From contig NZ_SRLA01000001.1 of assembly GCF_004745825.1 (NCBI RefSeq), forward strand, positions 1,488,001 through 1,552,000: a stretch of DNA of 64,000 bases, read 5' to 3'. A program made the position numbers and the translations under genes. The notes under the pieces were generated by a model. It was not told where the DNA came from and ran no database searches. It saw nothing but the letters and a program-made list of their open reading frames with translations. This DNA comes from Hymenobacter fodinae. Its GTDB lineage: Bacteria > Bacteroidota > Bacteroidia > Cytophagales > Hymenobacteraceae. Positions 2,927-40,053 of this stretch are shown in pieces. How positions within the stretch are numbered: position 1 is the stretch's first letter; each line of letters opens with the position of its first letter.

Positions 2927-4636
2927 TTACCCCTGAGCAACTGCCTTCCGGCGAGCAGGCGCTTTGATAGCGCGCTCCTCACCTTGGCTGAGCAGTTCCT
3001 CGTCGCGCTGTTCCGATTTCTTGGTCCAGCTTACCGAGTACAGATCCTTGCGCCGGTCGCGCAGGTTCCGCACGGCCCCGCTGGTGTTGAGGTCCTTGAG
3101 CAGGTCTAAATCGAGGTCGGCAATCAGCGTCATCTCGGTATTAGGAGTTGCTTCGGCTACAATGGCGTCGTGGGGGAAGGCGAAGTCAGAAGGGCTGAAC
3201 ACCGCCGACTGCGAGTACTGAATGTCCATGTTCTCAACGCGGGGCAGGTTACCCACCGAGCCGGTAATGGCCACGTAGCATTCATTCTCAATGGCCCGGG
3301 CCTGGGCGCAGAGACGTACGCGCTGGTAAGCATTCTTGGTGTCGGTCCAGAAGGGCACAAACAAAATCTTCATGCCTTCATCTGATAGCATCCGGGAGAG
3401 TTCGGGGAACTCCACGTCGTAGCAAATCAGAATACCAATTTTACCGAAGTCGGTATCAAAGCACCGCAGCTTGTCGCCGCCGCGCATGCCCCAGTAGCTG
3501 GCCTCATCAGGCGTCACGTGCAGCTTATACTGCTCGTCCACGGTACCATCGCGCCGGCAGAGGTAGCTTACATTATAGAGCTTGCCATCATCGTAGAGCG
3601 GCATAGAGCCCGCAATAACGTTGATGTTGTAGCTCACGGCCAGCTCCATCATTTTGGTTTTGATGGGCTCGGTGAAGGCCGACATCGAGCGGATAGCCAC
3701 CGAGGGCGACTCCTCGTTGGTGAGGGCCATCATGGGGGCGTTGAAGAACTCCGGGAACAGCACGCAGTCGGCCTTATAGCCCGATACGGTATCCACGAAG
3801 AACTCCATCTGCTGGAAGAAGTCGTCGAGGTTCTGGGTGGCGCGCATCTGCCACTGCACGATGCCAATGCGCACGTTCGACTTCTGGTTACCAATCAGCT
3901 TGTCGGTTTCCTCGTCGTAGTACACATTGATCCACTCCAGCAGCGTGGCGTAGGCCTTCGACTCAGAGTCGTAGGGTAGGTAGCCGCGGATGATTTTGCG
4001 CACGTAGAAATCGTTGGCCAGCTGGAAGGTAAGGATGGGGTCGGTGAGTTCTTTGGCCCGTACCATCTCCACGTATTTAGCTGGCGTCATCTCGTTGGCG
4101 TAGGCCGCGTAGCCCGGAATGCGGCCTCCGGCCACCATAGCGCGCAGGTTCAGGTTTTCGCAGAGCTCCTTACGTGCGTCGTATAAACGACGGCCTAGGC
4201 GCAGGCTCCGGTACTCGGGGTCCACAAATACGTCCACTCCGTAGAGGGTGTCGCCGTTGGGGTCGTGGGTGTCGAATTTGCCATTGCCAGTAATCTTGGC
4301 GTAGGTGTGTTTGTCACCAAACTTGCTGTATTCGACGATGATAGCCAGGGCGGCGGCTACAATCTGACCGTTGTCCTCAATGCAGATTTGGCCTTCGGGA
4401 AATTTTTTGAGAAGGGCGTTATACTCATCTTGGGCCCAGGCACCCTCCATGTTGGAGTATACCTTGTCCATGATTTGCTTTACGGCCTTAAAGTCAGAAC
4501 GCATCAGAGTACGCAACACCAGCTTGTGGGCTGGTATTGAGGTGGGCGTCATCAGCTCAGGAGCTGCAGGCATGCCCGGAAGAGTTTGTTTTTTGGCGTG
4601 GCTGCCGCCCGCCTTGCCATTTGCAGAAGTGGCCAT
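2927..4636 (-). CDS. GNAT acetyltransferase fused to a nitrilase-family hydrolase
   Basis: This 569-residue protein has two enzyme domains. Residues of about 35-200 look like a GNAT acetyltransferase, with the acetyl-CoA loop near VDPEYRSLRLGRRLY. Residues of about 255-530 are a carbon-nitrogen hydrolase with the full Glu-Lys-Cys set: E296 in FPEFF, K371 in QYKLHVTP and C405 in ICYDVEFPE. Proteins of this layout are widespread in Bacteroidota, but the substrate is unknown. The C-terminal tail is basic. A TATCTTTA box on the reverse strand (4668-4675), one base off consensus, may be the promoter. Confidence 0.9.
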   Translation of the reverse strand: MATSANGKAGGSHAKKQTLPGMPAAPELMTPTSIPAHKLVLRTLMRSDFKAVKQIMDKVYSNMEGAWAQDEYNALLKKFPEGQICIEDNGQIVAAALAIIVEYSKFGDKHTYAKITGNGKFDTHDPNGDTLYGVDVFVDPEYRSLRLGRRLYDARKELCENLNLRAMVAGGRIPGYAAYANEMTPAKYVEMVRAKELTDPILTFQLANDFYVRKIIRGYLPYDSESKAYATLLEWINVYYDEETDKLIGNQKSNVRIGIVQWQMRATQNLDDFFQQMEFFVDTVSGYKADCVLFPEFFNAPMMALTNEESPSVAIRSMSAFTEPIKTKMMELAVSYNINVIAGSMPLYDDGKLYNVSYLCRRDGTVDEQYKLHVTPDEASYWGMRGGDKLRCFDTDFGKIGILICYDVEFPELSRMLSDEGMKILFVPFWTDTKNAYQRVRLCAQARAIENECYVAITGSVGNLPRVENMDIQYSQSAVFSPSDFAFPHDAIVAEATPNTEMTLIADLDLDLLKDLNTSGAVRNLRDRRKDLYSVSWTKKSEQRDEELLSQGEERAIKAPARRKAVAQG

Positions 4637-38264: not shown

Positions 38265-38272
38265 TATATTTG
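38265..38272 (+). promoter_or_regulatory. TATATTTG -7 box ahead of the unassigned RNA
   Basis: TATATTTG is an exact consensus -7 box. A TTTTG at 38247-38251 lies upstream, but the 13-bp gap is shorter than usual. The next rightward coding gene is beyond 40 kb, so this box most simply serves the RNA at 38278-38534. Confidence 0.6.
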
Positions 38273-38277
38273 TTTCG

Positions 38278-38534
38278 TTGAAAACGAAAGTAGCAGAGAG
38301 CTTGCGCCCCCTGCTACCGTTACCGCTACAGTCCGAAAAGGAGGTATACGCCTCCGATTCCGCCTAAAGCGGCCACTACTTTTACCATGAAAGTAGTGGT
38401 CACATGAATGGAGCATTCAAACTGAAGCCCATCCATGTTTGTACGACCCTTGTCCATAACGACTGGATTTGAGGGTGGCCTAAACACCCTTCTTATCCTG
38501 AAGCCCGTGCCCCAAGCACGGGCTTCGCTGTTTT
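38278..38534 (+). ncRNA. Unassigned structured RNA, about 255 nt
   Basis: The stretch has no long reading frame but holds a series of hairpins: GTAGCAG/CTGCTAC (38290-38317), GGAGG/CCTCC (38340-38355), CCGC/GCGG (38360-38372), the 10-bp CCACTACTTT/AAAGTAGTGG (38373-38399), GAATG/CATTC (38406-38418) and AGGGTG/CACCCT (38472-38490). A terminator with stem AAGCCCGTGC/GCACGGGCTT (38501-38525) ends in GTTTT. A consensus -7 box precedes it. It lacks the hallmarks of tmRNA, RNase P RNA and SRP RNA, and it is not the single long hairpin of 6S RNA. The flanking gene on the right is on the other strand, so it is not a leader. Confidence 0.6.
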
Positions 38535-38643
38535 AAGCAGCCGCGTTGGCGGGGTGACAACCGTACGTTTGCCAAATATACTAGCATTCAACGGCTCTTA
38601 TGCTACTGTGGTTAGTATTTTTAGTTTTGGTTGAGCTTGATGC

Positions 38644-39474
38644 TTAAGCAGAAAGTCGGCGAGTATGCTCTAGCAGCTTATCTAAGAAGTTATCAAACCG
38701 CAGGATAAAGTGCTGTTTAGGCTGCTTGCGCCGGAAGAATACCAATCCAATGAAGAACAAATCAATGGTCAGGGTAACATCTGGATGCTGTTGGATGGCC
38801 TTCCAGGCACGGGTCATTTCTTCCGACCAATGGATATCGTCCAATACAAATACGCTGTCATCGGTACGGTGCGCATTCATCAGCTCGAAATAGCGCAGGG
38901 TGGGCTCATAACGGTGGTTGCCATCGAAGAACGCAAAGTCAACGGGGGCATTGAGGGCCGCTAGCGCCGGTGCGAGGGTCTCGTCAAGGTTACCTTCCCG
39001 GAGCTCTACATTACCTAGGCCTAGAGCAGCAAACGTTTCGCGGGCAACGGCTGCCGTTTGCGGGCAGCCCTCAAACGTGAGCACACGCGCGCGAGAATCG
39101 GCCGAAGCCAAGTAAGACGTCGTAAGGCCTAGAGATGTGCCCAATTCAATCACCGTGCGTGGCTGAAACGCATTCACTAGCCGGAACAGCAGCTGCGCGA
39201 GCGGCCGGGGCTTGGCAGCAGCACGAGCAATGTCGCGGATGCGGCGGGTTCGGCCGGCCCCTGTGTGCGAGCCAGCCCCAAAGTCACGCACCTGAATACT
39301 GGTTGAGCTCTGTAACAGCTCCCGGCGCCGGGTTTCAATGGGTTCGTAAGCGGCAAACTGCCCATCATGCCCAATTACGTGCGCATACAGGCCAAAAACG
39401 AAAGGCGAGTGTAGCCCATGCGTGTTGCCTGATTGCAACAGAAACCGGAGGTAGCTAAGAAGTTGAAACAGCAA
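38644..39474 (-). CDS. Class I SAM-dependent O-methyltransferase
   Basis: The 276-residue protein has the SAM-binding segment TVIELGTSLGLTTSYLA, an acidic VLTFEGCP loop and FAFFDGNHRYEPTLRYF. The last is typical of catechol-O-methyltransferase-like enzymes (Methyltransf_24). The conserved HGLHSPFVFGLY stretch near residue 20 is shared by a Bacteroidota group. No ATG or GTG suits the N-terminus. TTG at 39474 is the likely start. The substrate is unknown. Confidence 0.82.
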   Translation of the reverse strand: MLFQLLSYLRFLLQSGNTHGLHSPFVFGLYAHVIGHDGQFAAYEPIETRRRELLQSSTSIQVRDFGAGSHTGAGRTRRIRDIARAAAKPRPLAQLLFRLVNAFQPRTVIELGTSLGLTTSYLASADSRARVLTFEGCPQTAAVARETFAALGLGNVELREGNLDETLAPALAALNAPVDFAFFDGNHRYEPTLRYFELMNAHRTDDSVFVLDDIHWSEEMTRAWKAIQQHPDVTLTIDLFFIGLVFFRRKQPKQHFILRFDNFLDKLLEHTRRLSA

Positions 39475-39578
39475 AATACGAACGTGAGGAGAAGAGCGAC
39501 CCGTACTACTGGCCTAGCCGCTGACTGAAATGTGCCCAGCAAAGCTACGCGGCTTTTTAAGATCGAATAGGCTACTCA

Positions 39579-39650
39579 GCCAGCACAGAAACGCCTTTCT
39601 TCAACCAAGGCAACAAGCTGCTCTGGGAAGAAAGGCGTTTCTGTGCTGGC
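39579..39650. terminator. 24-bp stem hairpin between apaG and the O-methyltransferase
   Basis: The arms at 39579-39602 and 39627-39650 are exact complements (core CACAGAAACGCC) around a 24-nt loop. An octamer (39647-39654) overlaps the right end. It lies just beyond the leftward apaG stop and probably terminates it. Confidence 0.75.
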
Positions 39651-39666: not shown

Positions 39667-40053
39667 TTAGTTCAAGCGGTACGGAACCACAAGCGTAAAC
39701 TCGGGAATTTCAACAGCAAACTCGCTGCCATCCATCAGGCGCTCCATCTGGTATGAGCCCCGCATCTTGCCAAGTCCCGACTTAAGGTTACAGCCCGAAA
39801 CATACTGGTGCGATTCGCCAGGTTCCAGTACGGGCTGCTGGCCTACTACGCCTTCGCCTTCTACTTCGCGCACGGCGCCGTTAGCATCGTAGATGTACCA
39901 ATGGCGGCGCAGCAGTTTAACAGTAAATTCACTGTCGTTGCGGATATCAATTTTGTAAGCGAAAACGTAATGTTCCTGACCTGGGCTCGAATAGTCGGGC
40001 AGGTAATTGGTGGTTACGCTAACGGTGACACCCTGTGTTGTGGTCGTATTCAT
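39667..40053 (-). CDS. apaG: ApaG family protein
   Basis: The 128-residue protein covers the whole ApaG/DUF525 beta-sandwich domain, from VTVSVTTNYLPDYSSP through RRHWYIYDANG and EGEGVVGQQPVLEPG to GSYQMERLMDG. ApaG was linked to cobalt and magnesium efflux in Salmonella, but its molecular role is not settled. It is a single gene bounded by a hairpin on one side and the divergent ung on the other. Confidence 0.93.
   Translation of the reverse strand: MNTTTTQGVTVSVTTNYLPDYSSPGQEHYVFAYKIDIRNDSEFTVKLLRRHWYIYDANGAVREVEGEGVVGQQPVLEPGESHQYVSGCNLKSGLGKMRGSYQMERLMDGSEFAVEIPEFTLVVPYRLN

Follow-up and report, generated by a model that had tools for sequence, protein, structure and literature searches.

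A short peptide gene opposite a predicted antisense RNA downstream of kdsA in Hymenobacter fodinae: a candidate type I toxin-antitoxin-like module

The DNA analysed here, a stretch of 64,000 nt from Hymenobacter fodinae (contig NZ_SRLA01000001.1, positions 1,488,001 to 1,552,000; hereafter the window), carries a gap of 445 nt between kdsA and a methyltransferase gene. Positions 38265-38534 of the window, within this gap, had been read in a first-pass annotation as an unassigned structured RNA of the plus strand. We found that the minus strand of the gap holds a conserved gene for a short peptide, with its own promoter box, structured leader and terminator, and that the plus-strand RNA would lie antisense to it. 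This arrangement resembles a type I toxin-antitoxin module, a reading that is weighed below.

Opposing transcription signals in the kdsA spacer

Most of what the first-pass annotation had described was found again. An exact -7 box of the Bacteroidetes type, TATATTTG, stands on the plus strand at 38265-38272, and positions 38278-38534 (257 nt) of this strand have a predicted folding energy of -106.8 kcal/mol, whereas shuffled versions average -63.6 (z -9.56; none of 200 shuffles as good). The 10-bp stem reported earlier lies at 38373-38399, and the terminator proposed for the right end is a 12-pair terminator-like hairpin (38499-38527) with TTTT after it at 38531-38534. The gene to the right (38644-39474) is indeed on the minus strand. 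In agreement with the view that the RNA belongs to no known class, no Rfam 15 family reached its gathering score in 38265-38534, the sole match in the window being a tRNA elsewhere, and a relaxed search of the stretch gave only two matches (E 0.44 and 0.83), far under the cut-offs. No published description of the stretch turned up in the literature searches made.

No long reading frame is present, as stated earlier, but the minus strand has a shorter one that had been missed, an ATG frame of 43 codons (38457-38326) nested in a listed 53-aa GTG frame. Also overlooked were the minus-strand signals around it, a -7 box TATATTTG at 38580-38573 and a terminator-like site at 38318-38289. The earlier suggestion of a new RNA class was correct in that the unit is structured, looks transcribed and has no Rfam match; what relatives conserve, however, is the short minus-strand peptide gene with its structured leader. 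A stand-alone noncoding RNA class was rejected on this conservation and on the Rfam searches, which were empty at both gathering and relaxed thresholds. The hairpins are kept with covariation in relatives, where they belong to the peptide mRNA no less than to the plus-strand RNA.

Copies of the locus were collected with a covariance model of the leader (R1) built from 12 copies. We read 120 loci, of which 117 were distinct; because they were picked from the better-scoring R1 matches, the sample is not random. The features of the window copy are as follows.

38573-38580, minus strand: -7 promoter box TATATTTG of the peptide mRNA, seen in the sequence
38280-38568, minus strand: predicted peptide mRNA of about 289 nt, its start inferred from the -7 box and its end from the terminator (fold z -7.70)
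38541-38568, minus strand: conserved 5' leader ACGTACGGTTGTCACCCCGCCAACGCGG, from alignments of 12 and 117 copies
38556-38552, minus strand: leader CACCC, able to pair with GGGTG at 38489-38485 (97.4% of cells paired)
38499-38527, both strands: hairpin of the mRNA leader, also the antisense RNA's terminator (pairing maintained through changes on both sides)
38473-38489, minus strand: local GGGTG-CACCC hairpin, the rival of the leader CACCC pairing (97.1% of cells paired; folding predictions)
38326-38457, minus strand: peptide gene of 43 codons plus stop, MDKGRTNMDGLQFECSIHVTTTFMVKVVAALGGIGGVYLLFGL (19-member homologue cluster; median dN/dS 0.23 over 112 pairs)
38373-38399, both strands: 10-bp stem within the coding sequence (95% of cells paired, 16 distinct sequences)
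38289-38318, minus strand: terminator-like hairpin of the peptide mRNA, a terminator-like site on the sequence
38265-38272, plus strand: -7 promoter box TATATTTG of the antisense RNA (TANNTTTG box at the same place in 70 of 91 intact copies)
38277-38534, plus strand: predicted antisense RNA and putative antitoxin of about 258 nt, inferred from boxes and terminators

Transcript starts were placed with the box-to-+1 spacing described for Flavobacterium johnsoniae, with T at -12 and G at -5 (PMC6847099). With this spacing the predicted start of the mRNA falls on the opening base of the conserved block (38568) and that of the plus-strand RNA on 38277, adjoining the tail of the minus-strand terminator. 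Judging from the layout, the predicted antisense RNA would be complementary to the peptide mRNA except for its first 34 nt or so, an overlap of about 255 nt.

The opposing promoter boxes recur among the copies. On the peptide side, a TAnnTT[TGC] box lies within 18 nt of the start of the conserved leader in 97 of 117 copies (a count made without shuffle control), and conservation upstream of the leader is limited to this -7 box. For the predicted antisense RNA, 70 of the 91 copies with an intact frame have an exact TANNTTTG box, directed towards the gene, no more than 140 nt past the stop codon; base shuffles of the same stretches gave such a box in 2.1 copies on average and in 6 at most (200 rounds). 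The box was present in only 6 of the 26 copies without an intact frame (Fisher p 8.8e-7 against the intact copies, uncorrected for ancestry). Because many broken copies have lost the end of the module altogether, a fairer comparison is restricted to the 11 in which the 3' part of the frame survives; the box is present in 4 of these (p 0.009, likewise uncorrected).

The peptide gene and the folding of its mRNA

An intact ATG frame of 37-52 aa stood at the expected place in 91 of the 117 distinct copies. By single linkage these 91 peptides form nine clusters, with 34, 19, 15, 14, 4, 2, 1, 1 and 1 members. The median pairwise dN/dS of the four large clusters was 0.24, 0.23, 0.33 and 0.37 (526, 112, 103 and 87 pairs), in a comparison that excluded one truncated member as well as pairs that were nearly identical or had saturated synonymous sites. 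Most differences between cluster members fall on codon position 3. Because structure constrains silent sites too, these ratios are if anything too high. We conclude that the short peptide gene is real and under purifying selection.

The C-terminal 17 residues of the window peptide are hydrophobic (mean Kyte-Doolittle 2.08). Cluster means of the best 17-residue hydropathy were 1.06-2.06 and those of the helical moment 0.31-0.67, and the net charge is positive in 86 of the 91 intact peptides. Membrane type I toxins are described as having fewer than 60 residues and a putative membrane helix (PMC8309996); the peptides of this family are likewise small (<60 residues) and hydrophobic or amphipathic. 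Many members of different clusters start alike (MGKRAK, MKKVRT, MEKERA; by eye) and differ in their C-terminal parts. None of five peptides matched a known family in NCBIfam, in PADLOC or above the Pfam cut-off, and none of four did so in PHROGs; a sub-threshold Pfam match among the five was to TrbI (E 0.057).

In the mRNA, the GGGTG upstream of the start codon can pair either with the leader CACCC (97.4% of cells in 117 copies) or with a CACCC just 5' of the start codon (97.1%), compared with 39-63% of cells when either partner was slid by 1-4 bases. The outer base of this CACCC/GGGTG/CACCC triple covaries, being C-G-C in 76, T-A-T in 22, C-G-T in 12 and other combinations in 7 of the 117 copies, which were aligned by sequence alone; such counts are of sequences, not of independent events. 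RNAalifold paired the leader CACCC with GGGTG when given the first 12 copies, and chose the local helix when given all 117.

Folding predictions for 80 of the intact copies separated the two helices by transcript length. In the predicted full mRNA, the local helix had P>0.5 in 72 of 80 copies and the long-range helix in 1. In transcripts cut just past GGGTG, the long-range helix had P>0.5 in 51 of 80 (mean P 0.60); with a few more bases its mean P was down to 0.45-0.48, with 20 more to 0.19 and with 30 more to 0.01. As modelled by equilibrium folds, this profile is the signature of a transient helix.

The coding sequence itself is selected to fold. Set against synonymous recodings at the codon usage of the family, its mRNA strand had the greater stability in 90 of 91 copies (mean z -3.06); the antisense strand showed a weaker folding excess across the family (mean z -1.64). 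In the 10-bp coding stem, 95% of pairs hold in 16 distinct sequences, against 35-53% when the partners are slid. The pairing joins third codon positions to one another, and the paired positions vary in concert.

Distribution and mobility

When 59 related genomes were searched at the DNA level, 10 gave matches, H. fodinae itself among them, at 13 places in all. Most matches cover the right part of the stretch and extend beyond the plus-strand terminator. On the minus strand, most of these loci are built alike: a box resembling TAnnTTTG, then a conserved leader (ACGTACGGT...CACCCCGCCAAC...) and the hairpin serving as plus-strand terminator, followed after a near-constant distance by a start codon, and lastly a frame of some 40 codons with a terminator behind it. 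In a few loci the frame is broken. R1 matched 92 of 120 Hymenobacter genomes at E <=0.01, with up to 14 copies per genome. A DNA-similarity search of the H. fodinae genome gave no convincing second copy, whereas R1 found six places there at E <=1e-5, plus one weak overlapping match on the opposite strand. The window copy and one other of these six have an intact peptide frame, and four do not.

Across the order, R1 matched 37 of 390 genomes at E 1e-4. These genomes represent 3 of 129 genera, which belong to a single family; of the two genera other than Hymenobacter, one has a partial match only. In a sample of 395 genomes across the phylum, the H. fodinae genome alone was matched. The exact leader motif occurred in 22 stretches of named genomes, 19 of them Hymenobacter. 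The other three, from metagenome-assembled genomes (MAGs) labelled Verrucomicrobia, Porphyromonadaceae and Planctomicrobium, had no module downstream by eye and were taken as chance matches. A phage origin was also considered and rejected: the window peptide was unmatched in phage records, and the exact leader motif was absent from the viral contigs searched.

In 21 relatives kdsA and the methyltransferase gene are neighbours, and the exact leader motif lies between them in none, in a test that could miss a diverged copy. The gap in these relatives is 33-191 nt in 12 and known as an upper bound only in 9. By this comparison, the window copy is apparently an acquired insertion between the two genes.

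Related peptides are present on five plasmid records (three plus two), all from Hymenobacter, where four of the matches fall on no annotated feature and one on a "hypothetical protein". We also chose 14 contigs or contig ends for having copies on mostly short contigs. A relaxase homologue was found on 12 of the 14 and a Rep_3 initiator homologue on 11 (Pfam on seven proteins), and six show end overlaps of 77-127 nt, as in circular assemblies. The module is multi-copy, and its spread includes small mobilizable plasmids.

The plasmid member in Hymenobacter sp. DG01 is the hypothetical protein WP_257883430.1 (2001-2132 of the stretch read), encoded upstream of umuD and a Y-family polymerase gene. 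A 27-kb Hymenobacter plasmid that also bears a VapC-family toxin gene has a partial match (57% of the query; 3001-3072 of the stretch read) between mobC and its replication initiator gene.

Interpretation, related systems and neighbouring repeats

We read the locus as a type I toxin-antitoxin-like module, in which the plus-strand RNA is the predicted antisense of the minus-strand peptide gene, and give this reading a probability of roughly 80%. The plus-strand RNA itself is best explained as the antisense partner of the peptide mRNA. The working that we infer for the module, from transcription and folding order to toxicity and antisense repression, would be as follows. The minus strand would yield an mRNA of about 289 nt, with a structured leader of about 111 nt and a 43-residue peptide whose C-terminal half is hydrophobic; the plus strand, read from the other end, would yield an antisense RNA of about 258 nt over the whole frame and most of the leader, ending at the leader hairpin. 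During mRNA synthesis the leader CACCC would pair transiently with the GGGTG upstream of the start codon, until the local GGGTG-CACCC hairpin displaces it and leaves a folded mRNA that would be translated poorly. The antisense RNA, presumed unstable, would pair with the remaining mRNA, leading to its removal. If the antisense supply stopped, for example on plasmid loss, surviving mRNA would be translated, and the peptide would enter the membrane and stop growth.

Several results weigh against this reading. The exact antisense -7 box is missing from 21 of the 91 intact copies, its retention in 4 of the 11 broken copies with a 3' part means that the link between frame and box is not strict, and both tests of that link ignore shared ancestry. 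A conserved -33 TTTG element was sought in the logos of both promoters, and none was seen. The long-range pair is favoured only moderately in truncated folds, which represent equilibrium and not kinetics, and the refolding analysis left out 11 of the 91 intact copies, in which the segment patterns were not found. The window copy also departs from its family: its coding sequence has a stronger z on the antisense strand (-4.06) than on the mRNA strand (-2.35), contrary to the family mean, and its peptide has a net charge of zero by count, unlike the 86 positive members.

The perfect -7 box, the terminator and the fold z of -9.56 on the plus strand would also suit an independent structured noncoding RNA, such as a trans-acting small RNA, beside which the minus-strand frame is incidental, and so would the larger antisense-strand folding excess in the coding region of the window copy. 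However, the frame is kept in 91 of 117 copies at a dN/dS of 0.23-0.37, the most conserved block (38541-38568) falls outside the plus-strand RNA, and in the family as a whole it is the mRNA strand that shows the larger folding excess; we consider such an RNA very unlikely. Scattered copies, decayed copies and the insertion between kdsA and the methyltransferase gene might also reflect a non-autonomous mobile repeat (MITE- or REP-like) with the palindromes and the frame as passengers. This idea is hardly credible given the purifying selection on the frame, the covariation in codon register and the conservation that stops at the promoter box; no terminal inverted repeats were noted, and target-site duplications were not searched for.

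A third alternative accepts the peptide gene and its antisense regulator and makes the product something other than a self-toxin, namely a membrane-protein modulator, a signal or a secreted antimicrobial peptide. Peptides that are cationic and hydrophobic or amphipathic suit such roles too, and nine unrelated-looking clusters could fit diversifying peptides. Against this, no secretion or immunity gene was seen beside the window copy, the neighbours of other copies not having been surveyed systematically, and multi-copy, decaying, plasmid-borne modules with an opposing antisense promoter suit a toxin-antitoxin system better, which makes a non-toxic role improbable.

Transient or mutually exclusive mRNA folds are described as controlling the toxins of AapA/IsoA in Helicobacter pylori (PMC6733600) and timP/TimR in enterobacteria (PMC11228461). 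The AapA/IsoA account (PMC6733600) gives several chromosomal copies, a short membrane-type peptide, an overlapping antisense RNA from the opposite strand, and an mRNA with long-range pairing and transient hairpins that changes during transcription, all of which recall the module predicted in Hymenobacter. AapA control, however, masks the Shine-Dalgarno sequence (PMC6733600), which mRNAs of Bacteroidetes are described as lacking (PMC6847099). By description only, the Hymenobacter module differs further in that its antisense RNA would span nearly the whole mRNA and that nine peptide types stand under one leader. In the hok/Sok system, Sok is short and covers the leader only. The module shares with hok/Sok its plasmid carriage and, by prediction, a metastable 5' hairpin in the toxin mRNA and an antisense RNA (PMC6733600), but the five Hymenobacter peptides searched have no Pfam match above cut-off. 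The timP mRNA, first annotated as a noncoding RNA, has mutually exclusive folds set far upstream of the start codon; it belongs to another phylum, the upstream pairing, a pseudoknot, makes its active form, and we liken the two by description only (PMC11228461). The msoT1/msoA1 system of Microcystis is similarly a type I-like locus beyond the classical phyla, although its host is a cyanobacterium (PMC12390103).

According to that 2025 paper (PMC12390103), Proteobacteria, Firmicutes and Tenericutes were the only phyla in which type I systems had been found before. Another report, which counts orphan toxins of various types in marine Bacteroidota MAGs, does not in its available text assign type I to that phylum (PMC12654330), and our non-exhaustive search of the open-access literature found no type I system in Hymenobacter or Bacteroidota. 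The module is probably a new type I toxin-antitoxin family and, on the 2025 statement and these searches, possibly the first in Bacteroidota. We lean towards a fuller picture of this Bacteroidota family, in which one leader-and-antisense chassis is joined to at least nine peptide payloads, uses a co-transcriptional switch and not Shine-Dalgarno masking, and is maintained across Hymenobacter both in many chromosomal copies and on small mobilizable plasmids. Three things would be new: the family itself, its occurrence in this phylum, and the joining of nine peptide clusters to a single RNA chassis.

If the reading is true, a family common in Hymenobacter extends the type I class to Bacteroidota. 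Because Bacteroidota lack Shine-Dalgarno sequences, the usual silencing of toxin mRNA cannot apply, and how such an mRNA stays silent would become testable. A plasmid-stability element would also be gained for Hymenobacter, a genus with few genetic tools. The locus further illustrates that short genes on the opposite strand can hide within structured "noncoding" DNA.

Other repeats were seen in the surrounding DNA. Several relatives have other palindromic stretches of 140-190 nt 3' of kdsA, and the gap after this gene seems to collect structured repeats. In the window, a long inverted repeat (acagaaacgcctttct ... agaaaggcgtttctgt) at 39573-39650, between the methyltransferase gene and a small gene (39667-40053), looks like a terminator or a repeat element.
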